DNA from: Bacillota bacterium
GTDB taxonomy: Bacteria > Bacillota > Sulfobacillia > DUSP01 > JBFMCS01
NCBI GenBank assembly: GCA_040754315.1
Contig: JBFMCS010000062.1
Coordinates: 12,081-76,080, forward strand
Reading direction: 5' to 3'
Length of the DNA stretch: 64,000 nucleotides
Shown: one piece after another, positions 23,166-35,076 of the stretch
How the letters are laid out: the number at the start of each line of letters is the position of its first letter
Position numbering within the stretch: the first letter of the stretch is position 1
The notes under the pieces: generated by a model
What the model was told of the DNA's origin: nothing
Seen by the model: the letters and a program-made list of their open reading frames with translations, nothing else
Database searches by the model: none
Translations under genes and position numbers: made by a program

Positions 23166-25217
23166 GTGGCGAATACTCCCAGGGTGACCGTAGTAAGTGT
23201 AAGCAAACTGACAAAAGAGATATTTGTCTCTCAGGTCCGGGAGTTCTTCGGAGCCTCGCTGGACGTACATACAGTCTGCTTCGAGGAAAGTGGGGCGTTC
23301 CGTAGCGATTCTGACATTGTGCTCGTATCCCAGGCCTCCCTGAAATCGAGCCTGCCGCCACTGCCTCCCGATAGTCCAGTGGTTGTTGCACGGCGATCTC
23401 TTGACATGGGACGTATTGCCGAAGTAATGTCTGTGCCTGCCGGGAAGGCACTGGTGGTCAGCAACATGCGAGAGGCGGCGGAAGAAGCCGTTGAACTGCT
23501 ACTGGGCATAGGCATTAGCCATCTTGAGATGATCCCGTACTACCCTGGGGCCCCTCTCCCACCATATGAAGTCAGGGTGGCCATCACTCCAGGGATAGTG
23601 GGCTTGGTACCCCCCGGACTTCAAGTTGTTGACATCGGTGTAAGGCCCCTTGATGTTTCCACGCTTGTTGAAGTGGGTGTTAGGCTTGGCTTGCCTCTTG
23701 ACAAGGCCAACATTCTAGGAGCCAGGTACAACAAGCGGATGGTGGCCCTCATTAGCGAGCAGGCACAGATGCTGGTGGAAATCAACGCGCTCACCAAGTA
23801 CTTGGAGGCCATTCTGAACTCTGTTAATGACGGCGTCATAGCCGTTGATGATCAACTCAGGATAATCGTGATGAACTCTGTGGCAAGCGAGATAACCAAG
23901 AGCAACTCTGGTCCCGGTGGAAGGCTGCACCAACCCCAGCTGGCCAAAGAACTGGAGGATCTGCTGAAGACGGGAAAGGCCGATATTAACCGGCTCATGC
24001 ATCTGAACGGTCGACAGCTCCTGGTTACAAAAACCCCCGTATTCAGCAAGGACAAGACTGCAGCGGTAGTTGTCATACTCAAGGAAGTCACCGAGTTGCA
24101 CCGTGCCTCTCGGGACCTCTCGCGGCAAATAAGGCGTAAAGCGTATAAGACCAAGTATTCCATTGATGACATTCTCGGGGACTCTACGGACATCCGCCGG
24201 ACCAAGACCGTAATGAGAAAGATCGGCCCTACGAACCTGACGGTTCTCATTATGGGGGAGCATGGAACTGGCAAGGAGCTGGTGGCTCACGCCTTGCACA
24301 ATCTCTCCAGGAGAAAGGGGCAACCCTTTGTCCCCGTCAACTTGGCCTCCCTACCGGAGACCTTGATTGAGAGCGAACTCTTCGGATACGAGGAAGGTGC
24401 CTTCACCGGGGCTCGAAAGGGCGGCAAACCGGGTTTGTTCGAGCAAGCGCATCCGGGAACCATCTTCTTGGACGAAATCGGTGACCTGCCGTTAAACACT
24501 CAAGTGAAACTTCTTCGAGTCCTCGAGGAGAAGGAAGTAATGAGAATAGGTGGAACTAGCATCATTCCCATTGATGTCCGCATCTTAGCAGCAACCAACA
24601 AGGACCTCTTGAAAAGCGTAAGGCAAGGCTCGTTCCGCGCTGACCTTTACTACCGGCTGTGCGAATCACGCCTTATGGTACCACCTCTCCGGAGTAGAAA
24701 AGAGGATATCCCGCTTCTGGCCGCGCACTTCTTCACGAAATTCGGCCCCACCAGCGCACCTCTTTCGGAGCGGTTGCTCACCTGCCTCACTCGGTACGAT
24801 TGGCCGGGGAACGTTCGCCAGCTTGAGGGGGTGATCCGCTATATCTGCAACACAACTGACGGGGACGACGATGAAGTGTATATTCTCCTGGATGAGATGC
24901 TCGAGGGCGACACTAATGAGCGAACGGAAGAGGAGTGGCTGGAAGTTCTCGAGGTCATTGAGGCAAGGGGATCTCGTGATGAGTACACCGCCATACTCCA
25001 GGAACTCCTGATCGCAAAAGAGGAGGGGCTACGGGCTGGCAGGGAGAGCTTGGTGAAAAGATGCCAGTCCCACGATCTCAGGGTCACCGGCAACATGATG
25101 CGCTCGCGTTTGGATGCCCTGCGGGCTCAAGGTTGCGTTGTTACGGGACTGGGCCGGCAGGCAACACGGATTACGGAACGAGGAGAAGGGTTCCTTCGTT
25201 GGCTGAGACGGCACTAA
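23166..25217 (+). CDS. Sigma-54-dependent transcriptional activator with PAS domain
   Basis: About 683 residues. The N-terminal 190 residues form a receptor region of uncertain type (PrpR-like at best), followed by a PAS domain (ILNSVNDGVIAVDDQLRIIV) and the AAA+ activator domain with Walker A GEHGTGKE, the sigma-54 contact loop EGAFTGARKG and Walker B IFLDEIGDLP. The end is unusual: instead of a Fis-type helix-turn-helix there is an acidic linker and a helical/winged-helix-like tail (LRAQGCVVTGLGRQATRITERG). The GTG at 23166 is preferred, eight bases after GAGGAG; a GTG at 23157 lies too close. A -24/-12 promoter follows 170 bases after the stop and is its likely target. Confidence 0.88.
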   Translation: MANTPRVTVVSVSKLTKEIFVSQVREFFGASLDVHTVCFEESGAFRSDSDIVLVSQASLKSSLPPLPPDSPVVVARRSLDMGRIAEVMSVPAGKALVVSNMREAAEEAVELLLGIGISHLEMIPYYPGAPLPPYEVRVAITPGIVGLVPPGLQVVDIGVRPLDVSTLVEVGVRLGLPLDKANILGARYNKRMVALISEQAQMLVEINALTKYLEAILNSVNDGVIAVDDQLRIIVMNSVASEITKSNSGPGGRLHQPQLAKELEDLLKTGKADINRLMHLNGRQLLVTKTPVFSKDKTAAVVVILKEVTELHRASRDLSRQIRRKAYKTKYSIDDILGDSTDIRRTKTVMRKIGPTNLTVLIMGEHGTGKELVAHALHNLSRRKGQPFVPVNLASLPETLIESELFGYEEGAFTGARKGGKPGLFEQAHPGTIFLDEIGDLPLNTQVKLLRVLEEKEVMRIGGTSIIPIDVRILAATNKDLLKSVRQGSFRADLYYRLCESRLMVPPLRSRKEDIPLLAAHFFTKFGPTSAPLSERLLTCLTRYDWPGNVRQLEGVIRYICNTTDGDDDEVYILLDEMLEGDTNERTEEEWLEVLEVIEARGSRDEYTAILQELLIAKEEGLRAGRESLVKRCQSHDLRVTGNMMRSRLDALRAQGCVVTGLGRQATRITERGEGFLRWLRRH

Positions 25218-25300
25218 CCATGAGTGTTTTGCACTACCACAAGTAGGAGCATAGTCCACCGCGGGCCTTAGCCCCACCTGAGTCAATAGGGTATAATTGG

Positions 25301-25336
25301 TGGTATCTGGCCTCCCAATAGCGCCACTTGCTACCA
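25301..25336. promoter_or_regulatory. Imperfect dyad, candidate activator-binding site
   Basis: TGGTA (25301-25305) and TACCA (25332-25336) frame an inner TGGC/GCCA pair, about 55-90 bases before the -24/-12 promoter. This is the usual distance for an enhancer site bound by a sigma-54 activator. The dyad is imperfect, so the assignment is tentative. Confidence 0.3.
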
Positions 25337-25389
25337 GAAAGTCCCCGAAGCCTCCCAGCATGCCGCACACAAGAGCTAGCAGGTTGCTT

Positions 25390-25405
25390 GGGTACGATAC
25401 TTGCG
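25390..25405 (+). promoter_or_regulatory. Sigma-54 (-24/-12) promoter upstream of the SDR-symporter operon
   Basis: The sequence GGGTACGATACTTGCG matches the sigma-54 consensus: GG at 25391-25392 and GC at 25403-25404 with the required 10-base gap, plus ACG and TTGC in register. Transcription would start near 25416, about 80 bases before the SDR gene. It follows directly after the sigma-54 activator gene, which supports the call. Confidence 0.65.
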
Positions 25406-25495
25406 ATAGGCTATTCTGCATTTAACCCGTCGTGCGAGTCCAGGGGTCTGAAGACGCGGTGTTTGCCTTGTCAACAATACTGCACCAGGGGGTTG

Positions 25496-26284
25496 ATGCT
25501 ATTGGATACGAGTTGGCTGAAGGGCAAGACAGCAATTGTCACTGGGGCCTCTTCCGGTATCGGGAGTGCACTGGCAGAATCTCTTGCCCTGGGAGGAGCC
25601 CAGGTTGCCCTGGCTGCTCGGAGTGAAACGAAGCTGAAAGAGAATGCTGCGCGTATTGAGGGGAAGGGAGGAACGGCACTACCGGTAAAGGCTGATGTCA
25701 CCTTGGGTGCAGATGTCAACAACATGGTGGCTACTGTCGTAGATACCTTCGGTTCCATTGACTTCCTGGTAAACAATGCTGGCATATTCCCAGTCCTCCC
25801 CGTGCTCGAGATGGAAGAGAAGGAGTGGGACAGGGTCCTAGATACGAACTTGAAAAGCGCATACCTGTGCTCCCGGGCAGCTGCAAGGATTATGATTGAC
25901 CACGGAATCCCTGGAAGGATTGTGAACGTCAGTTCCACCTCTAGTATCATAGCTAGGCCGGGATGTGCTCACTATGCAGCATCGAAGGCCGGAATGATCA
26001 TGTTTACCAGGGTGCTGGCTCTCGAACTAGCTCCCTACGGAATTCTGGTAAATGCGGTTTGCCCTGGGGTAATCGGAACGGAAATCGTGGAGAGGCTAGC
26101 CAAGACTCAACAAGGGGAGGAGGAGAACCAGGCAAAACTCAATCGCATTCCGCTAGGTAGGTGGGGTACTGTAGACGAAATCGTCGGCGCTGTCATGTAT
26201 CTGCTCTCACCGAGTGCGAGCTATGCAGTTGGGTCATCTATAGTGATTGACGGCGGCTATTGTCTAGGAATCCCCAAGTACTAG
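25496..26284 (+). CDS. Short-chain dehydrogenase/reductase
   Basis: A 262-residue NAD(P)-dependent SDR. It has the cofactor motif TGASSGIG near residue 15, NNAG (about 92), the catalytic serine in VNVSSTSS and YAASK (Tyr-x3-Lys), and a normal C-terminus (VIDGGY). The frame is open far upstream, but only the ATG at 25496 (or TTG at 25502) has a nearby SD (AGGGGG) and gives the expected N-terminus. First gene of the presumed sigma-54 operon. Substrate is probably a small alcohol or ketone linked to the imported compound; not determinable. Confidence 0.88.
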   Translation: MLLDTSWLKGKTAIVTGASSGIGSALAESLALGGAQVALAARSETKLKENAARIEGKGGTALPVKADVTLGADVNNMVATVVDTFGSIDFLVNNAGIFPVLPVLEMEEKEWDRVLDTNLKSAYLCSRAAARIMIDHGIPGRIVNVSSTSSIIARPGCAHYAASKAGMIMFTRVLALELAPYGILVNAVCPGVIGTEIVERLAKTQQGEEENQAKLNRIPLGRWGTVDEIVGAVMYLLSPSASYAVGSSIVIDGGYCLGIPKY

Positions 26285-26318
26285 TAATGGCGCAACACCA
26301 TTAACAGGGGGTGACATC

Positions 26319-27743
26319 TTGGACGCATACTCAATCGGCATCGGAGTCTACCTGGTAGCATTGCTGGTTATCGGGTTTATCTGTACAAAGTTCGTGAAGA
26401 CCTTCGAAGATTTTGCCTTGATGGGTCGCCGGGTAAAGCCTTGGCTGATAGTAGCAACGATTTCCGCTAGTTGGTACGGTGCTGGTACTGTATCAGGGCT
26501 ACCATCCCTGGCGTTCCGGTCCGGCATGACAACACCTTTCATGTGGTTGATGGGTGCAAGCCTTGGCTACTTCATCGTGATTACTCTAGCCCCACGAGTT
26601 AACCGCACCAAACTCATAACCGTACCAGACATTCTCGAGGCACGGTACGGACCAGCCGCTAGGTATCTTGGGCTGGTGGGAGTCCTTGGCACATGGTCAA
26701 CATACATAGGCTACCAAATTATCGCCATCGGCTGGATCTTGGATGTGGCACTGGGCATTCCGCCCGTACCATGGGGTTTCATTCTGGGCTTCGGAATTGT
26801 GCTGATTTATACTGTGGCAGGCGGCTTGTATGCCGTGGTCTGGACAGACTTCATACAGGCAATGGTAATGATTGTGGGTATTACCTTGATGGTGCCGGTC
26901 GCTCTCTCCAAGATCGGAGGAGTCGCAGCGGCTACTGCAGCCATCACCGCGGTCGACAGTAATCTTTTCAACCCTTTTGGCGTGGGCTTCCTAACCGCAA
27001 TAGGTTTCTTTTTAATGCTGTTTGGACTTGCAGTCTGTGACCCCACTACCCACCAGAGGCTTCTTGCCTGTGAAAGTGACCGGTCGGCCAGAAAAGCGGC
27101 GTACGCGGCGCTGTTCATGCCCATCTTCTTCTACACTTTAATCCCCATCGCTGCTCTCATGGCCCGGGTGCTCTTCCCCGATATTCCAAACCCGGAATAT
27201 ACACTGCTCTGGTTGGCCCGTTACCTTCTCCCCGCGATAGTGGGCGTACCCTTGATGGTGGCTGTGGTCGCCACAGTGATGTCTACGGCCGACTCGGCAC
27301 TGAATATATGCTCCACACTGATCATTAACGACATTTACAAGCGGCTCATCAACCCCAAGGCCAGCGAACAAAGACTAGTCTTTCTCTCTCGGGTATTCGT
27401 CGTCGTATGGGCCATCTACGGACTTGTCTTGGCGTTTGCGTTACCAGGAGTGTTGGCGGGCCTGAGGATCGCCTACAGTATCATGGCGGGGGTTGTAAGC
27501 CCAGCCTTCCTTGCCGCCTTCCTGTGGAGGAGGGCAACGCCGGCCGGGGGAGTCGCAAGCCTGGCGGTGGGCTTGGTAACACTCATATACTCCTACTACA
27601 ACGAACCATTCGGATTGAGTCCAGTAATTCCCACCATGCTCTTGGGGTGGATAGCCCTCATAGTGGTTTCCCTGGCAACTGCTCCGCCCGAGGATGAGCA
27701 GGTCAGGCTCTTCATGCCGCCCCGGAAGACCATATCCAGCTAA
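26319..27743 (+). CDS. Sodium:solute symporter family transporter
   Basis: A 474-residue polytopic membrane protein with about 13 hydrophobic helices and SSS-family marks: ISASWYGAGTVSGLPS near residue 50, TVAGGLYAVVWTDFIQA (about 165-180) and VMSTADSALNICSTL (about 323-337). These carriers import organic solutes with sodium. The TTG start has GGGGGTGA upstream. It is followed after 37 bases by a gene for a 63-residue membrane protein. Likely the import step for the substrate of the peptidases downstream. Confidence 0.88.
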   Translation: MDAYSIGIGVYLVALLVIGFICTKFVKTFEDFALMGRRVKPWLIVATISASWYGAGTVSGLPSLAFRSGMTTPFMWLMGASLGYFIVITLAPRVNRTKLITVPDILEARYGPAARYLGLVGVLGTWSTYIGYQIIAIGWILDVALGIPPVPWGFILGFGIVLIYTVAGGLYAVVWTDFIQAMVMIVGITLMVPVALSKIGGVAAATAAITAVDSNLFNPFGVGFLTAIGFFLMLFGLAVCDPTTHQRLLACESDRSARKAAYAALFMPIFFYTLIPIAALMARVLFPDIPNPEYTLLWLARYLLPAIVGVPLMVAVVATVMSTADSALNICSTLIINDIYKRLINPKASEQRLVFLSRVFVVVWAIYGLVLAFALPGVLAGLRIAYSIMAGVVSPAFLAAFLWRRATPAGGVASLAVGLVTLIYSYYNEPFGLSPVIPTMLLGWIALIVVSLATAPPEDEQVRLFMPPRKTISS

Positions 27744-27780
27744 TGTGCCACAAAGCCTCCGAAAAAGGAGTGAAAAGAAG

Positions 27781-27972
27781 ATGAAGGGCGGAGATTTGTT
27801 TCCACTGTGGCTGATAGGCTTCATGGCCATAGGACTATTCGGCGCCATAATGATGACCATCTTCTTGTTTAGTGCAAGGGTGCCTACAGCATTTCTTGCC
27901 GTTGTTTACATGTTCGGGATACTTGCCGTGGGCACATGGCAGTACCTTGAACAAAGCAGGGAGGATACATAG
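27781..27972 (+). CDS. Small two-helix membrane protein, putative symporter partner
   Basis: A 63-residue protein with two hydrophobic segments (WLIGFMAIGLFGAIMMTIFLF and FLAVVYMFGILAVGTW) and a charged tail. The ATG at 27781 has AAAGGAG at good spacing, which shows that this short gene is real and that the longer open frame is not used. Small hydrophobic subunits are encoded beside some sodium/solute symporters; the position here suggests the same role, but I recognise no named family. Confidence 0.7.
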   Translation: MKGGDLFPLWLIGFMAIGLFGAIMMTIFLFSARVPTAFLAVVYMFGILAVGTWQYLEQSREDT

Positions 27973-28047
27973 ACACTAGTTCCAGCACAGGGGAGAGGGT
28001 TCACTCTCCCCTCCCCCCTGTGAATGGAAGAAAGAGGTGCTGCCCTG

Positions 28048-29223
28048 TTGCTGATGGATAGGTGCGGTAGCAAGGATGAATTGCTTGAGTTGTTCTTGGA
28101 GGTATTAAGAGCTCCCAGCGTGAACCCTCCAGCATATACCAGGGAAGTCGCGGAGATAATCCATCAAGCATTCCGACGAGAAGGAATAACCTCGGAACTA
28201 CTGGAGAAGGAACCGGGAAAGGCCAATGTGGTAGCTAGATTGGTTAATTCTAAGAGGGGATCAACCGTGGCCCTCAACGGGCATATCGACGTCGTCCCCC
28301 CTGGTGAGGGATGGACGTGTGACCCCTTCGAGCCGGCTGTGTTGGATAACTGGGTGGTGGCCCGGGGCGCTTCAGACATGAAATCAGGGGCCATTGCCAT
28401 GGCATACTCCATGATACTGATGGCTCGCTCAGGAATGAACCTCTCTGGCAATATCCTGTACACTGCCGTTGCAGATGAGGAGACAGGTAGCTCGTGCGGT
28501 ACTCGGTTCCTGATAGAATCAGGCGTGTTCGAGAACGTTGAGTGGGCAGTGGTAGGAGAGCCAACCGGGCTCAACGTCGAGCACGGCAATAGGGGAGTCA
28601 TATGGATGGAACTGGTGATCGAAGGAGTCGCCTGTCACGCAGGTCGATCTCATGTTGGCCAGAACCCCATTACCATAGCTGCAGAGTTGATAGAGGTTCT
28701 GTCACGTGACAGATTTGATGTTAGGAATAGTGAATTCGAGGTACCCACTCCCAGCCTGACAGTAACCCGCATATCTGCAGGGATAGCAGACAATGTTGTA
28801 CCACAGACTTGCACAATGACCCTGGATCGCCGGCTGCTTCCCGGGGAAAACGTGGCCAGGGCCACGGACACGATCCGGGAGGCGGTCCGCAATACGGTTG
28901 GGAATAGAGCCAAGGCTCACTGTTACGTCAAGACAGCATGGGAGCCATACTATCTGGATCCTTGCCATCCCCTACTAGCGGTTGCATGTGGCTCGTGTGA
29001 GAGGATTCTGGGTCAGAAACCGGAGGTCAGGTGTAAGGGAGGCGCAACTGACTGTTCTCATCTGTATCATATGGCTGGCATACCCTCAATACTTTTTGGG
29101 CCAGGTGAGCCTGAGGAGAGCCACGTGGTCGGTGAGAAGGTCTTGTTTGACAAGGTCGTGAAGTCTGTGGACATCTATGCTGATATCGTAAGGCAACTTC
29201 TTGGAGGGGAAGAGATTGAGTGA
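28048..29223 (+). CDS. M20-family metallopeptidase (ArgE/DapE type)
   Basis: About 391 residues. Zinc ligands and catalytic residues of the M20 family are visible: GHIDVVPPGEGW (His, Asp), GASDMKSG (metal-bridging Asp) and VADEETGSS (catalytic Glu plus ligand Glu), with a C-terminal histidine in FGPGEPEESH. Relatives remove acyl or amino acid groups from N-acylated amino acids or dipeptides. The TTG at 28048 has AAAGAGGTG nine bases upstream; an ATG at 28024 lacks an SD. The stop overlaps the next gene by eight bases. Confidence 0.85.
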   Translation: MLMDRCGSKDELLELFLEVLRAPSVNPPAYTREVAEIIHQAFRREGITSELLEKEPGKANVVARLVNSKRGSTVALNGHIDVVPPGEGWTCDPFEPAVLDNWVVARGASDMKSGAIAMAYSMILMARSGMNLSGNILYTAVADEETGSSCGTRFLIESGVFENVEWAVVGEPTGLNVEHGNRGVIWMELVIEGVACHAGRSHVGQNPITIAAELIEVLSRDRFDVRNSEFEVPTPSLTVTRISAGIADNVVPQTCTMTLDRRLLPGENVARATDTIREAVRNTVGNRAKAHCYVKTAWEPYYLDPCHPLLAVACGSCERILGQKPEVRCKGGATDCSHLYHMAGIPSILFGPGEPEESHVVGEKVLFDKVVKSVDIYADIVRQLLGGEEIE

Positions 29224-30025
29224 AGTCGTCCTAACCTTTGACTTGGACGGAGAGACGCTGTGGCTGGCCCGGGACCCGGAAAACGCCCACCGCCCTGTTA
29301 CACTATCCCAGGGCGCCTTCGGGCCCAAGGTCGGAGTCCCTCTCATTCTTGACCTACTCAATTCTCACGAGATTAAGGCCACATTCTTCGTACCAGGATG
29401 GATTGCAGAAAAACACACAACGACCGTCAAGAGCGTCATGGAAAAGGGCCACGAGATAGCTTTCCACGGCTACATGCACGAATGGCCCCATACCCTGTCT
29501 CCCGAGCAGGAGCGCGCGGTGTTCTTCAGGGGACTAAAGGCGCTTCAGGATATCCTGGCTGTGTCTCCCTCTGGCTACAGGGCACCGGCGTGGGAGTTAA
29601 GTACAAGTACCATGGGATTCCTCATCGAGCAAGGCTTCCTTTACTCCAGCAACTTCATGGATTCAATCAAGCCATATTGTCATCACTTGCCTTCAGGTGG
29701 GAATCTCGTTGAGATCCCCGTGAGCTGGGTTTGTGATGACGCTCCCTTCTTCCTGTACGGCTTGAACCTTCCAGGCCGCCAGATCGCTTCCCCTGACTCT
29801 GTGCGCGATATCTGGCGCAAGGAGTTTGACAGCCTCCACAAGCGTGGCCTCCCGCTGGTTCTTACCATGCATCCCCAGCTCATAGGAAGGCCCAGCCGCC
29901 TCGACATGCTACATGAACTCCTGACGTACATCCAGGAGCAGGGAGGATGCTTCCGTACGGCTTGGGAAGTAGCCGTAGGTTGTTTGGAAGAAGAACTCCA
30001 ATTCGCGAGGTGGAAGAATGTTTAG
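29216..30025 (+). CDS. Polysaccharide deacetylase (NodB-like) family protein
   Basis: About 269 residues with the NodB fold: TFDLDGE (catalytic and metal Asp), HGYMHEWPHTL (two metal histidines), RAPAWE and MHPQL near the end. This subtype, without a signal peptide, resembles cytoplasmic cyclic-imide or allantoin hydrolases (PuuE/HpPgdA-like) as much as peptidoglycan deacetylases. With peptidases on both sides, a role in amide or imide hydrolysis of an imported compound is plausible. The TTG start has GGAGGGG six bases before and overlaps the M20 gene. Confidence 0.82.
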   Translation: MSEVVLTFDLDGETLWLARDPENAHRPVTLSQGAFGPKVGVPLILDLLNSHEIKATFFVPGWIAEKHTTTVKSVMEKGHEIAFHGYMHEWPHTLSPEQERAVFFRGLKALQDILAVSPSGYRAPAWELSTSTMGFLIEQGFLYSSNFMDSIKPYCHHLPSGGNLVEIPVSWVCDDAPFFLYGLNLPGRQIASPDSVRDIWRKEFDSLHKRGLPLVLTMHPQLIGRPSRLDMLHELLTYIQEQGGCFRTAWEVAVGCLEEELQFARWKNV

Positions 30026-31754
30026 CCTCAACCAAGACATTCTTGACGCATTGGAAGAGATTTCAGCCGAGGAACTCATGGAACATACGAGGAGAGTATC
30101 CAGCGAAGTCAGGTTGTCAGGAAGCAGCGAAGAGATCAGGGCATTCCACTACGTACAGTCGGAATTGAAGTCAATGGGCCTCCAGCCGGTGCTTCGTTTC
30201 CACAAGGCGCTTATCAGCTTGCCGGGGTCCGCGGCCATCTGTTTTCCAGCGCTCCAGTTAACGATTCCCTGCATCACTCATTCTTTCTCCGGATCGTGCC
30301 AAGGCCTGGAAGGTGAGCTGTTCTACCTGGACACCGCAGGTGAGCCCCCGGCAGGCCCTGTGGTGAATCTGGAAGGGAAGATTGTGCTTCAGGAAGGCAT
30401 AGCCATGCCGGTGAAAGTCCATCATGCCAAGACGCTCGGCGCTATCGGCCAGATATACATAAATGACGAGCACACTCACGAAATGATAGTCTCTACGGTT
30501 TGGGGTAGCCCTTCCCCTGATAGAATGGAGGATCTCCCCTCCTTTCCTGTCGTCTCTGTTACCTCACAAGTGGGAGCCAGGATCAGAGAAATCGTGAAGA
30601 CTCATAACCCACTTACAGTGCGGCTATCAACCATGGTGGACACTGAATGGCGAGACATACCGCTAATGACTGCGGATATCCAATGCACTTCGGGAGGTTC
30701 CCAATACGCCTTGCTGTCTGGCCACATTGATTCGTGGCATTTTGGAGCCATGGACAATGCGGCCGCCAACGCAACTATGCTGGAAGTAGCCAGAATCCTA
30801 TCTGGCCGGAAAGGTCTGATGAGACGGAACTTGCGCCTGGCCTTCTGGTCTGGCCACTCGCATGGTCGATATGCGGGCTCTACGTGGTATGCCGACAATA
30901 ACTGGCTCGACCTCCACAAGAACTGTGTGGTCCATGTCAATGTTGATTCTACGGGAGGAGCCGGGGCCAGTATCACCGATGAAGCACCAGTCATGCCCCA
31001 AACCTATGATGTCGCCAGGGAAGTAATTGGTGCTATCACTGGTGCGGATCTTCGCTTCAAACTGATCGGACGAGCTGGGGACCAGTCATTCTGGGGACTC
31101 GGGATTCCTTCCCTGTTTATTAACGTTTCCGAACAGCCATTAGATGAAAGTGCAGCCAGCAAGGGCTTTTCCCTCTTGATGGGACCGCAAGGCGGTTATC
31201 GTGGAGGTGGACTGGGTTGGTGGTGGCACACGACAGAGGACCTAATAGACAAGATCGACAGCAACAATCTGGTTAGAGACACCTCCATATACCTAGGCGT
31301 AGTAATGCGTTTCTGCATGGATTTGGTAATCCCCCTTAGGTATTCATCCCTAATTCGATGGTTGCTTGCGCAGATTAGGAATTTGGATGGCCAACACTTT
31401 GAGCCATTCAATGCAGTGGAAATCCTAGCAGAGAAACTGCTAGGCCTTCTCATAGAGTTAGAACACCCGGAGAACAACAGTACCTACCTGAATCCCTGTC
31501 TAATGGAGTTGGGGAAGCTACTGGTCCCATGCACCGTGACAAGCGGGGACCCCTTTGAACATGATGACGCTCTGCCAAGAGGCCCAGTGCCAATGCTAGA
31601 CGCAGTGAGGGCCATGCTGACTAATGAACCGGGTTCTGACGGATACCTGCTGTACCAAGTGGCCGCCGTGAGGAAGGTCAATCGCTTACTCTATTGCCTG
31701 GATAAGGCATCGGAACTGGTACAGTCAGCCCTGGGATCCTCAAAGGGCGCTTAG
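30018..31754 (+). CDS. M28-like peptidase homologue with altered catalytic motif
   Basis: A 578-residue protein with an N-terminal M28/PA-type region and a peptidase domain. Some zinc-site residues are kept: SGHIDSW (His236, Asp238), the bridging Asp in GAMDNAAAN (Asp246) and His404 in WWWHTTED. Where active M28 enzymes have the Glu-Glu pair (as in WGGEE), this protein reads FWSGHSHGRYAGS, so the catalytic and ligand glutamates are replaced around residues 279-282. The C-terminal 150 residues resemble the helical dimerisation domain of the PSMA/transferrin-receptor group. It overlaps the deacetylase gene by eight bases and ends the operon. It may be an altered enzyme or a binding protein. Confidence 0.75.
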   Translation: MFSLNQDILDALEEISAEELMEHTRRVSSEVRLSGSSEEIRAFHYVQSELKSMGLQPVLRFHKALISLPGSAAICFPALQLTIPCITHSFSGSCQGLEGELFYLDTAGEPPAGPVVNLEGKIVLQEGIAMPVKVHHAKTLGAIGQIYINDEHTHEMIVSTVWGSPSPDRMEDLPSFPVVSVTSQVGARIREIVKTHNPLTVRLSTMVDTEWRDIPLMTADIQCTSGGSQYALLSGHIDSWHFGAMDNAAANATMLEVARILSGRKGLMRRNLRLAFWSGHSHGRYAGSTWYADNNWLDLHKNCVVHVNVDSTGGAGASITDEAPVMPQTYDVAREVIGAITGADLRFKLIGRAGDQSFWGLGIPSLFINVSEQPLDESAASKGFSLLMGPQGGYRGGGLGWWWHTTEDLIDKIDSNNLVRDTSIYLGVVMRFCMDLVIPLRYSSLIRWLLAQIRNLDGQHFEPFNAVEILAEKLLGLLIELEHPENNSTYLNPCLMELGKLLVPCTVTSGDPFEHDDALPRGPVPMLDAVRAMLTNEPGSDGYLLYQVAAVRKVNRLLYCLDKASELVQSALGSSKGA

Positions 31755-32012
31755 AGACTCCGGCAAGACATTGGATCTGGCCCTTCCGGGTGATGCGGGG
31801 GGGCCATCTTGAATCTTCCTACCCGGCACTTCAGTATCTTAGTGCCCAGGCAACTCGACCCGGACATTGGACTTGTACGCCGCCTGTTACTCCCAGGAGG
31901 TTGGCTATGAGGATAAATTGTGCGTACCTGCCAGGTCTGCATTGTATATATAGAATGATTATTATAAGATTAGGAATGTACAACTGTTTACCCTAGGAAG
32001 GGGCGAACCCCT

Positions 32013-33194
32013 GTGAAGAGAGTCAACATGGACCACGGTGCCGCAACCCCTCTACACCCTGCAGTGTGGGAGGCAATGAAGCCCTTCTTCCTCGAGCACT
32101 TCGGAAACCCCTCCAGCGGGCACAGCCTGGGAGCGGGACCCAGAAGGGCAATCTCCGAGGCCAGGGAGAACGTGGCCGCGCTCATCGGGGCGACCCCTGA
32201 GGAAGTCGTGTTCACATCCTGCGCCTCCGAGGCCAACAACATGGCCATCAAGGGGATCGCCGCCGCTAGGGGGCCCCAGGGAAACCACATCATCGCCTCA
32301 TCCATAGAGCACTTCTCAGTGCTAAACCCCCTCAAGACCCTGGAGAAGGAGGGTTTCCGGGTAACCCTGCTCCCGGTGGACCGCTATGGCCTTGTGAACC
32401 CGGGCGACCTGGCCTCGGCCATCACGCCCGGGACCATCCTGGTGTCCGTAATGGCCGCCAACCCGGAGATCGGCACAGTGGAGCCCCTGGAGGACCTGGC
32501 GGCGGTGACCCGGGAGAGAGGGATCCTGTTTCATACAGATGCCTGTGCCGCCGCAGGCCGGGTGCCGCTGGACGCCGGGGTGGGGTTCGACCTCCTGACA
32601 CTGGCGGGGGACCAGCTACGGGGCCCAAAGGGCAGCGGCGCCCTCTATGTGCGCCGCAGGACCCGCCTCCTTCCCCTCCTAGAGGGGGGAATCCAGGAGA
32701 GGGGCATCCGGGCGGGTACGGAGAACGTCCCTGCCATCGTGGGCCTGGGCAAGGCCGCTCGCCTGGCGGCCGAGACAATGGGGGAAAGGGCAAGGTGCCT
32801 TTCCGGTCTCAGGGACGAGCTCAGGGATGGCCTCTTTTCCCGGATCCCCCACCTTCACCTGAACGGGCACCCCGAGAGACGCCTCCCTGACAACCTCCAC
32901 GTATCCGTGGAGTTCGTGGAGGGAGAGGCCCTCCTTCTCCACCTGGACATGGCAGGCATCAGGGTATCCAGCGGTTCCTCCTGTACCTCCCAGGCACTGA
33001 AGTCCTCTCACGTGCTGGGCGCCGTGGGCCTGGCCCCCGAACTCGCCCAGGGCTCTTTGCTCTTCACTTTGGGGCAGGATAACACCAGGGAGGACATCCC
33101 CTACGTCGTAGAGGAGCTGGCCCGGGTGGCCAACCTCCTGAGGCAGATGTCGCCCCTTTACCACAACTACCTTAAGGAACATGGAAAAAACTAG
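32013..33194 (+). CDS. Cysteine desulfurase-like protein lacking the PLP lysine
   Basis: A 393-residue class V aminotransferase fold protein close to IscS/NifS. Kept features are DHGAATPLHP, His100 (SSIEHFSV), Asn150/Glu152 (ANPEIG), Asp176 (HTDA), the GTEN segment and the persulfide cysteine Cys324 in SGSSCTS. However, the canonical His-Lys before GPKG is Asp200-Gln201 (LAGDQLRGPKG), so the lysine that forms the PLP Schiff base is absent. The usual Gln after Asp176 is also Ala179. TusA-like and DsrE-like genes follow within 35 bases. It may be a persulfide carrier or a non-PLP homologue rather than an active desulfurase. Confidence 0.85.
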   Translation: MKRVNMDHGAATPLHPAVWEAMKPFFLEHFGNPSSGHSLGAGPRRAISEARENVAALIGATPEEVVFTSCASEANNMAIKGIAAARGPQGNHIIASSIEHFSVLNPLKTLEKEGFRVTLLPVDRYGLVNPGDLASAITPGTILVSVMAANPEIGTVEPLEDLAAVTRERGILFHTDACAAAGRVPLDAGVGFDLLTLAGDQLRGPKGSGALYVRRRTRLLPLLEGGIQERGIRAGTENVPAIVGLGKAARLAAETMGERARCLSGLRDELRDGLFSRIPHLHLNGHPERRLPDNLHVSVEFVEGEALLLHLDMAGIRVSSGSSCTSQALKSSHVLGAVGLAPELAQGSLLFTLGQDNTREDIPYVVEELARVANLLRQMSPLYHNYLKEHGKN

Positions 33195-33224
33195 AACGCC
33201 AGGCAGTCAGAAGGAGGGGGTCAA

Positions 33225-33482
33225 GTGCCCGGGGATAAGGAGAAATATAGCCAGGTGCTGGACTGTGCCGGGCTGTACTGCCCCGTGCCGGTGATGAGAT
33301 CACGGGAGGAGATGGACCGCATGTTTCCCGGGGAGATCCTAGAGATCATCGCTGATGACCCTGCGGCGGAGGAGGACATTCCCCGCTGGGCCAAGAGGGC
33401 AGGCCACACCGTGGTGAACATGTGGAAGGACGGGAGTGAGATACACTTCTTGATAAGAAAGGGCGAGAACAAGGAGGAGTGA
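33225..33482 (+). CDS. TusA/YedF-family sulfur-carrier protein
   Basis: An 85-residue protein of the TusA/SirA family. It carries the hallmark CPVP (CGLYCPVPVM-type motif with the active cysteine near residue 19) and the two-layer fold pattern ending in HFLIRKG. These proteins accept a persulfide from a desulfurase and pass it on; YedF members also occur in selenium metabolism. The GTG start has AGGAGGGGG upstream. It lies 30 bases after the desulfurase-like gene and three bases before the DsrE-like gene. Confidence 0.88.
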   Translation: MPGDKEKYSQVLDCAGLYCPVPVMRSREEMDRMFPGEILEIIADDPAAEEDIPRWAKRAGHTVVNMWKDGSEIHFLIRKGENKEE

Positions 33483-33485
33483 GCG

Positions 33486-33851
33486 GTGAAGAAGATCCTC
33501 TACGTGCAGACTAGCGGGCCGGAAACCCCCGAGAGACTCTATTCCCCTCTCATCCTGGCCCAGACGGCACTGGCCATGGACATTGAGCCTACCATCTACT
33601 TCTTGGGCCTTGGCCTTAAGCTCCTGGTGAAGGGCGAGGCTGAGAGGATCAGGGTTGGGGCCTTTCCCACTGTTGCGGAGGTGCTCAAGGACACCGCCGC
33701 CAAGGGGGTGAGGATCGTGGCCTGCCAGCAGAGCATGCAGTTGTTCGGCGGCAGCGTGAAGCCTGAGGACATCATGGAGGAGGCCATCATCGCCGGGGCG
33801 GCCACCTTGAATGACCTGGCGCTGGAGGCCGACGCCATACTAACCTTCTAG
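33486..33851 (+). CDS. DsrE-family sulfur-relay protein
   Basis: A 121-residue protein of the DsrE/DsrF-like fold, with a central cysteine in VACQQSM (about residue 79) at the position used for sulfur binding in DsrE/TusD-type proteins. The GTG start has GGAGGAG at good spacing. Together with the two genes before it, it forms a three-gene sulfur or selenium relay unit. The final acceptor is not encoded nearby. Confidence 0.82.
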   Translation: MKKILYVQTSGPETPERLYSPLILAQTALAMDIEPTIYFLGLGLKLLVKGEAERIRVGAFPTVAEVLKDTAAKGVRIVACQQSMQLFGGSVKPEDIMEEAIIAGAATLNDLALEADAILTF

Positions 33852-33867
33852 AACAAGGATGCCCGGG

Positions 33868-33896
33868 GGGCCCGGGGAGGCGAGACCTCCCGGCCC
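33868..33896 (+). terminator. Hairpin after the sulfur-relay genes
   Basis: GGGCCCGGGGAGG (33868-33880) can pair with CCTCCCGGCCC (33886-33896) with small irregularities around a five-base loop, followed by TCTCCTTT. It lies 17 bases after the DsrE-like stop and separates this unit from the coiled-coil/FtsEX genes. Confidence 0.5.
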
Positions 33897-33990
33897 TCTC
33901 CTTTAGAAGCCCCCGGCAGGGTGACTGCCCCTCGCTGTCGAATCCATCCTCTACTGGCCAAGACCGCCATCCCTAGAAAGGGGTTCTGCC

Positions 33991-35076
33991 TTGAGCCGCT
34001 GGCGACAGAGGTGCCTGTTCCTGGTAATCCTGTCCCTTGCGTACGCCCTCTTCTCATGGGCCGGTTTCGCCTCTCCCTCCCCCATCCTGTCCCTGGAGCC
34101 CGCGGAGCGTGATGCCCTCTCCAACCTGTTCCTCCTGCTTCTGAAGATGGAGCGGTCCAGGGCACGCATGGATGAACTGGATGTGGAGATAGGGGTTGTC
34201 CAGGAGGACATTCACAGGCTGGAAGAGTTGCTGGAGGAGACAGAGGCCAGGTACCGTGAGGCCCGCGCCAAGACGGGCACCGCCCTGCGCTGGCTGCACC
34301 GGATGGGCCCCACCTCCTACCTGGAGGTCCTCCTTGGAGCATCCTCACTCAGGGACTTCCTGGTCAGGGTGAACCTGGTGTCATCCGCGGCCAAGGGGGC
34401 CCTCAGGGTCCTGGCGGAGGTCCAGGAAGAGAAAAGGTCCTTTGCCTCCACCCGGGAGGACCTGGATGCGGCCCGGGATCGCCTTAGTGTCCTGGAGGAG
34501 GAAAGGAGCGCACTGGCCACGGCAGGCCAGGAATACGAGAGGGGTAAGGAGGGCCTTGCAGCCTCCCTGGGCCCCCGTGCGCCCTCAGTGTTCACTGAGA
34601 TGGATCGCCTTCAGGGCGCCTGGAACAGCCAGGCCAAGCCCTACCTGCTGAGGCTCCCCGAACGACTCTCGGCTCTCATGGAGAAGGGGATCATGCCCGA
34701 GGGGGTCACCATCACGCCCTCCCTCTTCAGCGTGAGGGTGAAGATACCGGAGTCCGGGCTCAATGCGGTCCTGGCAGAGGAAGCGGGCCTCAAGGACGCG
34801 GCCTTCGAGTTCGAGCCCGGGGGAGCGCGGCTCAAGGTCCCCTCCCTGGACCTCACGCTCCACGGGAGCCTCTCCGTGACCCCCCAGGGGCTTTTAGCCT
34901 TCAGCGTATCCCAGGTGGAATTCTCAGGCCTTACTATCCGCAGCGACCCTGTGCTCGAGCCAGTGTCTAGCCTCTCCCTGGACCTGGGGCCTTCCCTCCA
35001 GGGCATGGTACCCCAGAGCATCAGCATGGACCAGGACTTCATAGAGATGACAGTCAGCCTGGGCGGCTCAAGATGA
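33991..35076 (+). CDS. Secreted coiled-coil protein linked to FtsEX
   Basis: A 361-residue protein with an N-terminal signal or anchor segment (CLFLVILSLAYALFSWAGFA), then about 150 residues of heptad-rich coiled coil (roughly residues 45-190) and a beta-rich C-terminal domain ending in SISMDQDFIEMTVSL. The coiled-coil part resembles those of PcsB, CwlO and EnvC, which FtsEX controls outside the membrane. No NlpC/P60, CHAP or M23 hydrolase domain is visible. The TTG start follows AAAGGGG. The ftsE gene starts 19 bases later, so this is a likely FtsEX partner that acts as an adaptor rather than a hydrolase. Confidence 0.7.
   Translation: MSRWRQRCLFLVILSLAYALFSWAGFASPSPILSLEPAERDALSNLFLLLLKMERSRARMDELDVEIGVVQEDIHRLEELLEETEARYREARAKTGTALRWLHRMGPTSYLEVLLGASSLRDFLVRVNLVSSAAKGALRVLAEVQEEKRSFASTREDLDAARDRLSVLEEERSALATAGQEYERGKEGLAASLGPRAPSVFTEMDRLQGAWNSQAKPYLLRLPERLSALMEKGIMPEGVTITPSLFSVRVKIPESGLNAVLAEEAGLKDAAFEFEPGGARLKVPSLDLTLHGSLSVTPQGLLAFSVSQVEFSGLTIRSDPVLEPVSSLSLDLGPSLQGMVPQSISMDQDFIEMTVSLGGSR

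Follow-up and report, generated by a model that had tools for sequence, protein, structure and literature searches.

Canonical cysteine desulfurases of the IscS/NifS type hold PLP through a Schiff-base lysine, Lys206 of the His205-Lys206 pair in E. coli IscS, while the carboxylate of the cysteine substrate is held by Arg354 of IscS, as likewise in SufS. IscS homologues without this lysine are already known from Archaeoglobus fulgidus and Methanosarcina acetivorans. In A. fulgidus IscS (PDB 4eb5, 4eb7 and 4hvk; D199K mutant 4r5f) the lysine is replaced, Gln183 has become alanine and Arg354 leucine, the cysteine is kept and there is an IscU partner. Published work (PMC7585200) describes this protein as having no desulfurase activity and as giving a cysteine ligand to the cluster on IscU. 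IscS1 of M. acetivorans, an IscS paralogue described in the same source, is reported to be without the catalytic lysine and is encoded with IscU1 beside lysine-containing paralogues; it differs from the protein studied here in being archaeal.

The other systems with which the locus can be compared concern the movement of sulfur between carriers. In the E. coli IscS-TusA pair the two cysteines, that of TusA being Cys19, lie 4 Å apart (PMC11302665), and in A. vinosum DsrEFH Cys78 of DsrE binds sulfur in vitro, with sulfide among the donors used (PMC3397948). Sulfide-fed Fe-S assembly without a dedicated cysteine desulfurase feed, as is proposed below, is represented by the SMS system (SmsCB) of M. 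jannaschii (PMC12192291), although its scaffold is SufBC-like, unlike IscS/IscU.

The locus described here lies in a 64,000-nucleotide stretch of DNA (the window) from a Bacillota bacterium, and consists of genes for a lysine-less IscS homologue, a TusA-like protein and a DsrE-like protein, in that order and without iscU. No description of a lysine-less IscS together with TusA and DsrE was found in the literature searched, which lay mostly outside subscription papers; nor did the same literature yield a description of the bacterial lysine-less clade, of the joint loss of Arg354, of TusA-DsrE linkage in both lysine-less clades or of a unit devoid of iscU.

An IscS fold with an altered active site

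The iscS homologue is an open frame of 393 aa on the plus strand at 32013..33194, with a GTG start at 32013 and a stop at 33192-33194, as clean as a first-pass annotation of this DNA had described it. Residues were mapped by alignment with E. coli IscS as the reference. The PLP Schiff-base lysine is absent, Asp200-Gln201 (GAC CAG, 32610..32615) replacing His205-Lys206 such that Gln201 stands at the lysine position. Ala179 (32547..32549) replaces Gln183, the contact of PLP O3', and the substrate-binding arginine is likewise absent, with Leu350 (33060..33062) at the position of Arg354. Further substitutions are Pro151 for Asn155 and Ala198 for Ser203, whereas A. fulgidus IscS keeps both Asn155 and Ser203 and has Asn-Asp where the window protein has Asp-Gln. 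Retained are His100 (32310..32312; E. coli His104, stacking on the PLP ring), Asp176 (32538..32540; E. coli Asp180, at the pyridine N) and, in the mobile loop, the invariant persulfide cysteine Cys324 (32982..32984; E. coli Cys328), all encoded on the plus strand. The first-pass annotation had read the His-Lys, Gln and cysteine sites in the same way, but had overlooked Leu350 at the Arg354 position, the absence of the customary iscU from the unit and the extent of the trait over entire clades, and had not foreseen a lineage of IscU partners with an archaeal precedent in print.

The protein shares its fold, its long mobile cysteine loop and about 42-51% identity with canonical IscS/NifS proteins (E. 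coli IscS and L002 of the host itself), but Lys206, His205, Gln183 and Arg354 of those proteins are all lost. The aminotransferase class V fold of fold type I is present (Pfam PF00266, 2.5e-60), and the best Protein Data Bank matches are cysteine desulfurases, A. fulgidus IscS among them. The nearest NCBIfam model is NifS, for which the score of 461.7 falls under the cut-off of 530.75; the score against the IscS model, 371.7, also falls under its cut-off of 643.2. A structure model with a pLDDT of 92.4 has the IscS fold, only the Cys324 loop (323-328) being of very low confidence (<50). Superposition gives 1.1 Å for A. fulgidus IscS 4hvk and 1.4 Å for E. coli IscS, and the model can also be superposed on human NFS1, with Foldseek TM values of 0.93-0.96 against IscS/NFS1.

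Since the equivalents of Lys206 and Arg354 have both been lost, neither the chemistry nor the substrate site is left. Judged by its sequence the protein is not a desulfurase, a conclusion common to the sulfur relay and the cluster-ligand readings considered below. This pattern of joint loss beside an invariant cysteine favours the suggestion of the first-pass annotation that the protein may be a persulfide-type carrier incapable of the PLP desulfurase reaction. As His100 and Asp176 are invariant, it is possible that PLP or PMP is still bound without a covalent link; A. fulgidus IscS was reportedly isolated with PMP.

Conservation and ancestry of the lysine-less proteins

The level of conservation was studied in a homologue set comprising 80 loci obtained by scanning a single genome from each species, together with relatives, the lysine-less genomes themselves and one archaeal phylum. 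Aligning homologues, a check that the first-pass annotation had proposed for those beside TusA-DsrE genes, identifies the loss as a clade-wide trait: the lysine is missing from 79 of 156 scorable proteins and present in the remaining 77. The equivalent of Arg354 is found in 77/77 lysine-containing proteins but in 0/78 of the lysine-less proteins that cover the site, and that of Gln183 in 75/77 as against 1/79. By contrast, the cysteine corresponding to Cys324 is present in every lysine-less protein in which it is covered (78/78) and in all 77 lysine-containing ones, and the equivalents of His100 and Asp176 are invariant among the scored homologues. The pair at the His-Lys site of the lysine-less proteins may be DQ, ND, SV, MS, NQ, HQ or others, free variation of the kind that should follow once catalysis makes no further demand on a residue.

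A sequencing error as the source of the missing lysine was rejected, because Asp-Gln occupies the same site in 27 homologues, 79 are without the lysine and dN/dS between close relatives is 0.05-0.10, indicative of purifying selection. The loss of catalytic residues could also mark a decaying pseudogene, yet this is contradicted by the same purifying selection and by conservation throughout the clade, with a full-length frame and 47 invariant columns over 27 divergent members, and the probability of such decay is negligible. Nor does it seem at all likely that the protein is an unusual but active PLP enzyme, employing either another lysine or external PLP chemistry. His100, Asp176 and, in most lysine-less homologues, Thr236 are kept, which speaks for such an enzyme; however, the substrate arginine is lost in all of them, A. 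fulgidus IscS is reported to be inactive (PMC7585200), and no lysine in the lysine-less alignment is both invariant and specific to these proteins, which argues against the use of a different lysine envisaged in the first-pass annotation. K330, present in 93% of the bacterial lysine-less clade, is missing from the archaeal one and occurs in the lysine-containing PDB protein 9wep.

In a tree of 117 proteins, from which columns 198-203 were left out, 40 bacterial lysine-less rows form one clade (SH-aLRT 100). A second, mainly archaeal clade (SH-aLRT 99) is made up of 14 other lysine-less rows, A. fulgidus IscS among them, and groups with archaeal lysine-containing proteins (SH-aLRT 92). A tree of 59 rows gives the same picture, the window protein and A. 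fulgidus IscS falling in separate clades in both, and a single lysine-less clade, when enforced, costs 19.3 log units but is not rejected (p-AU 0.235). Two losses of the lysine fit these sequences better than one, and the trait would have only about two origins. Going by the titles of the records, the bacterial clade spans Bacillota (many of them Syntrophomonadaceae MAGs), Aminicenantes, Acidobacteria, Chloroflexi and Elusimicrobia, as well as Nitrospirota-type, delta-proteobacterial, Planctomycetota and WOR-3 genomes. One member of the second clade, a lysine-less IscS of the archaeal type (Asn-Asp), lies beside TusA in a bacterium that belongs to the same class as the window (L118 1501-2664, minus strand), and is likely to reflect horizontal transfer between domains.

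Gene neighbourhood and an orphan IscU

Downstream of the iscS homologue, and on the same plus strand, are genes for a TusA-like sulfur carrier of 85 aa (33225..33482; Pfam TusA 1.5e-24) and a DsrE-like sulfurtransferase of 121 aa (33486..33851; Pfam DsrE 5.6e-18). Cys19, in the Cys-Pro motif of the former, is invariant in the neighbouring TusA set, and Cys80 of the latter is invariant as well. The gaps of 30 and 3 bases bear out the tight unit with TusA-like and DsrE-like genes noted in the first-pass annotation. The 30-base gap (33195..33224, plus strand) is the place at which iscU stands in nearly all close relatives; the order in close bacterial relatives is IscS-IscU-TusA-DsrE, and in archaeal members TusA-DsrE-IscS-IscU. 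The unit is composed of the same protein families as the E. coli IscS-TusA and TusBCD/DsrEFH relays, with Cys19 of TusA and the DsrE-type cysteine conserved, although IscS in E. coli generates the persulfide. No RNA families were detected in 31500-34300, and a scan for promoters and terminators gave weak consensus matches only. A block of ~8 kb (window 24001-32000) with a GC content of 0.52-0.55, as against about 0.60-0.64 on either side, ends just before the iscS start; it carries symporter-like, peptidase/deacetylase-like and M28 peptidase genes, and may be a recent insertion.

Within 1.2 kb and on the same strand, TusA accompanies 51/72 lysine-less but 1/48 lysine-containing loci, and DsrE 39/74 but 0/47, counts that are not phylogenetically independent; a test of the TusA link that corrected for descent had only 1-2 independent pairs and no power. 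For IscU the figures are 66/78 and 48/65, a difference that is not significant. About a third of lysine-less loci have no TusA nearby, those of Aminicenantes mostly having IscU alone, and no TusA was found in two of the lysine-less genomes (G071 and G072; the Endomicrobium and WOR-3 genomes tested). As the link is not universal, the core consists of the lysine-less IscS and IscU, to which TusA and DsrE are often added.

Alternatively, the protein could be solely a cluster-ligand or scaffold partner, which carries no sulfur but binds IscU and provides Cys324 as the fourth ligand of a cluster built from free sulfide, TusA and DsrE serving another pathway. Such is the role suggested for A. fulgidus IscS (PMC7585200), and it accords with the adjacency of IscU at 66 of the 78 lysine-less loci and with the lysine-less genomes that have no TusA at all. 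It leaves unexplained, however, both why TusA and DsrE recur next to the gene in two clades whose gene orders differ and a window unit that has TusA-DsrE but no IscU, and is considered rather unlikely.

Several related clusters carry additional features. A TusA with an N-terminal Cys-rich (zinc-ribbon-like) extension, which the window TusA does not have, or a separate small Cys-rich protein beside IscU, is found in some (L008 3184-3552, L015 1868-2227, L034 5602-5772). A rubrerythrin-like gene, named by eye from its translation, lies divergently upstream of several lysine-less iscS clusters (L008 791-1285, L021 2547-3107), and in some Chloroflexi and Bacillota the DsrE partner is longer, different and resembles DsrE2 (L027 5838-6341, L029 5800-6273, L034 5788-6261).

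The host genome contains three IscS/NifS-like genes at E <= 1e-60, further remote homologues and two IscU genes. A canonical unit, comprising an Rrf2/IscR-like regulator, a NifS with His-Lys, IscU and MnmA (regulator and MnmA being named by eye), is located on a separate contig (C61). An orphan iscU, with no IscS neighbour, is found on contig C41 (L089 1468-1869, minus strand); it keeps the cluster ligands, has the composition of the host and falls among the IscU partners of bacterial lysine-less proteins (33 rows, SH-aLRT 86). The simplest history is that iscU became separated from the IscS-TusA-DsrE unit. As the window unit is without iscU, its IscU partner must act in trans, the IscU of matching type being unlinked and none adjacent.

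All 12 of the other lysine-less genomes tested also encode a lysine-containing second copy, hence the lysine-less protein is an addition to the cysteine-fed enzyme and not a replacement for it. The ubiquity of this copy in the genomes tested, and the transfer from IscS to TusA established in E. coli (PMC11302665), might instead suggest that the lysine-less protein accepts persulfide made by the host's canonical IscS and relays it to TusA and DsrE and on to processes further downstream, for instance the thiolation of tRNA. Yet the canonical IscR-NifS-IscU-MnmA cluster is separate and could feed TusA directly, and conservation of the IscU partner is indicative of iron-sulfur assembly; such an acceptor role is improbable. 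The selenium carrier role raised in the first-pass annotation finds less favour still, and is scarcely to be expected. SelD is present in the host genome, but on another contig and unlinked to the lysine-less gene, it is missing, by the cut-off used, from 3/13 lysine-less genomes, and a distinct desulfurase-like homologue adjoins another TusA gene of the host on contig C47.

A proposed reverse persulfide relay

The reading preferred here, which is regarded as probable though far from secure, is that the protein is a non-desulfurating IscS paralogue, Cys324 of which takes sulfur from a DsrE-TusA relay and serves IscU as a persulfide donor or cluster ligand. With the desulfurase site lost and the sulfur-carrying cysteine kept, Cys324 would have to obtain its sulfur from elsewhere, and the flow is proposed to run in reverse because this IscS homologue is apparently unable to make persulfide. 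DsrE would bind inorganic sulfur (sulfide or polysulfide) as a persulfide on Cys80, to be passed to Cys19 of TusA and thence to Cys324, opposite to the known direction from IscS to TusA in E. coli. Cys324 would then swing into the IscU encoded elsewhere in the host genome, as a persulfide donor or a transient [2Fe-2S] ligand, in line with what has been proposed for IscS of A. fulgidus; PLP or PMP, if bound, would be structural. This route from sulfide through DsrE, TusA and Cys324 to IscU fits the gene content, and it is the lost active site only that suggests the direction of flow. The competition of TusA and IscU for IscS in E. coli (PMC11302665) counts against the proposed relay, and as some lysine-less genomes have no TusA it cannot be universal. 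More tentatively, it is possible that the bacterial and the mainly archaeal lysine-less lineages, with independent origins, both operate in a TusA-DsrE-IscS-IscU machine that loads IscU from inorganic sulfur by a reverse persulfide relay through a dead desulfurase, beside the cysteine-fed ISC of the cell.

Ever since IscS of A. fulgidus was found to be inactive, it has been uncertain where its IscS-IscU system obtains sulfur, and the recurrent linkage to TusA-DsrE, which spans two clades and two domains of life, suggests both a concrete source and a route. The lysine-less family suggests iron-sulfur assembly that does not draw its sulfur from cysteine at the lysine-less IscS itself. It also indicates that homologues in many anaerobes, which probably bear a cysteine desulfurase annotation, are incapable of the reaction, with consequences for metabolic models and for surveys of Fe-S systems.
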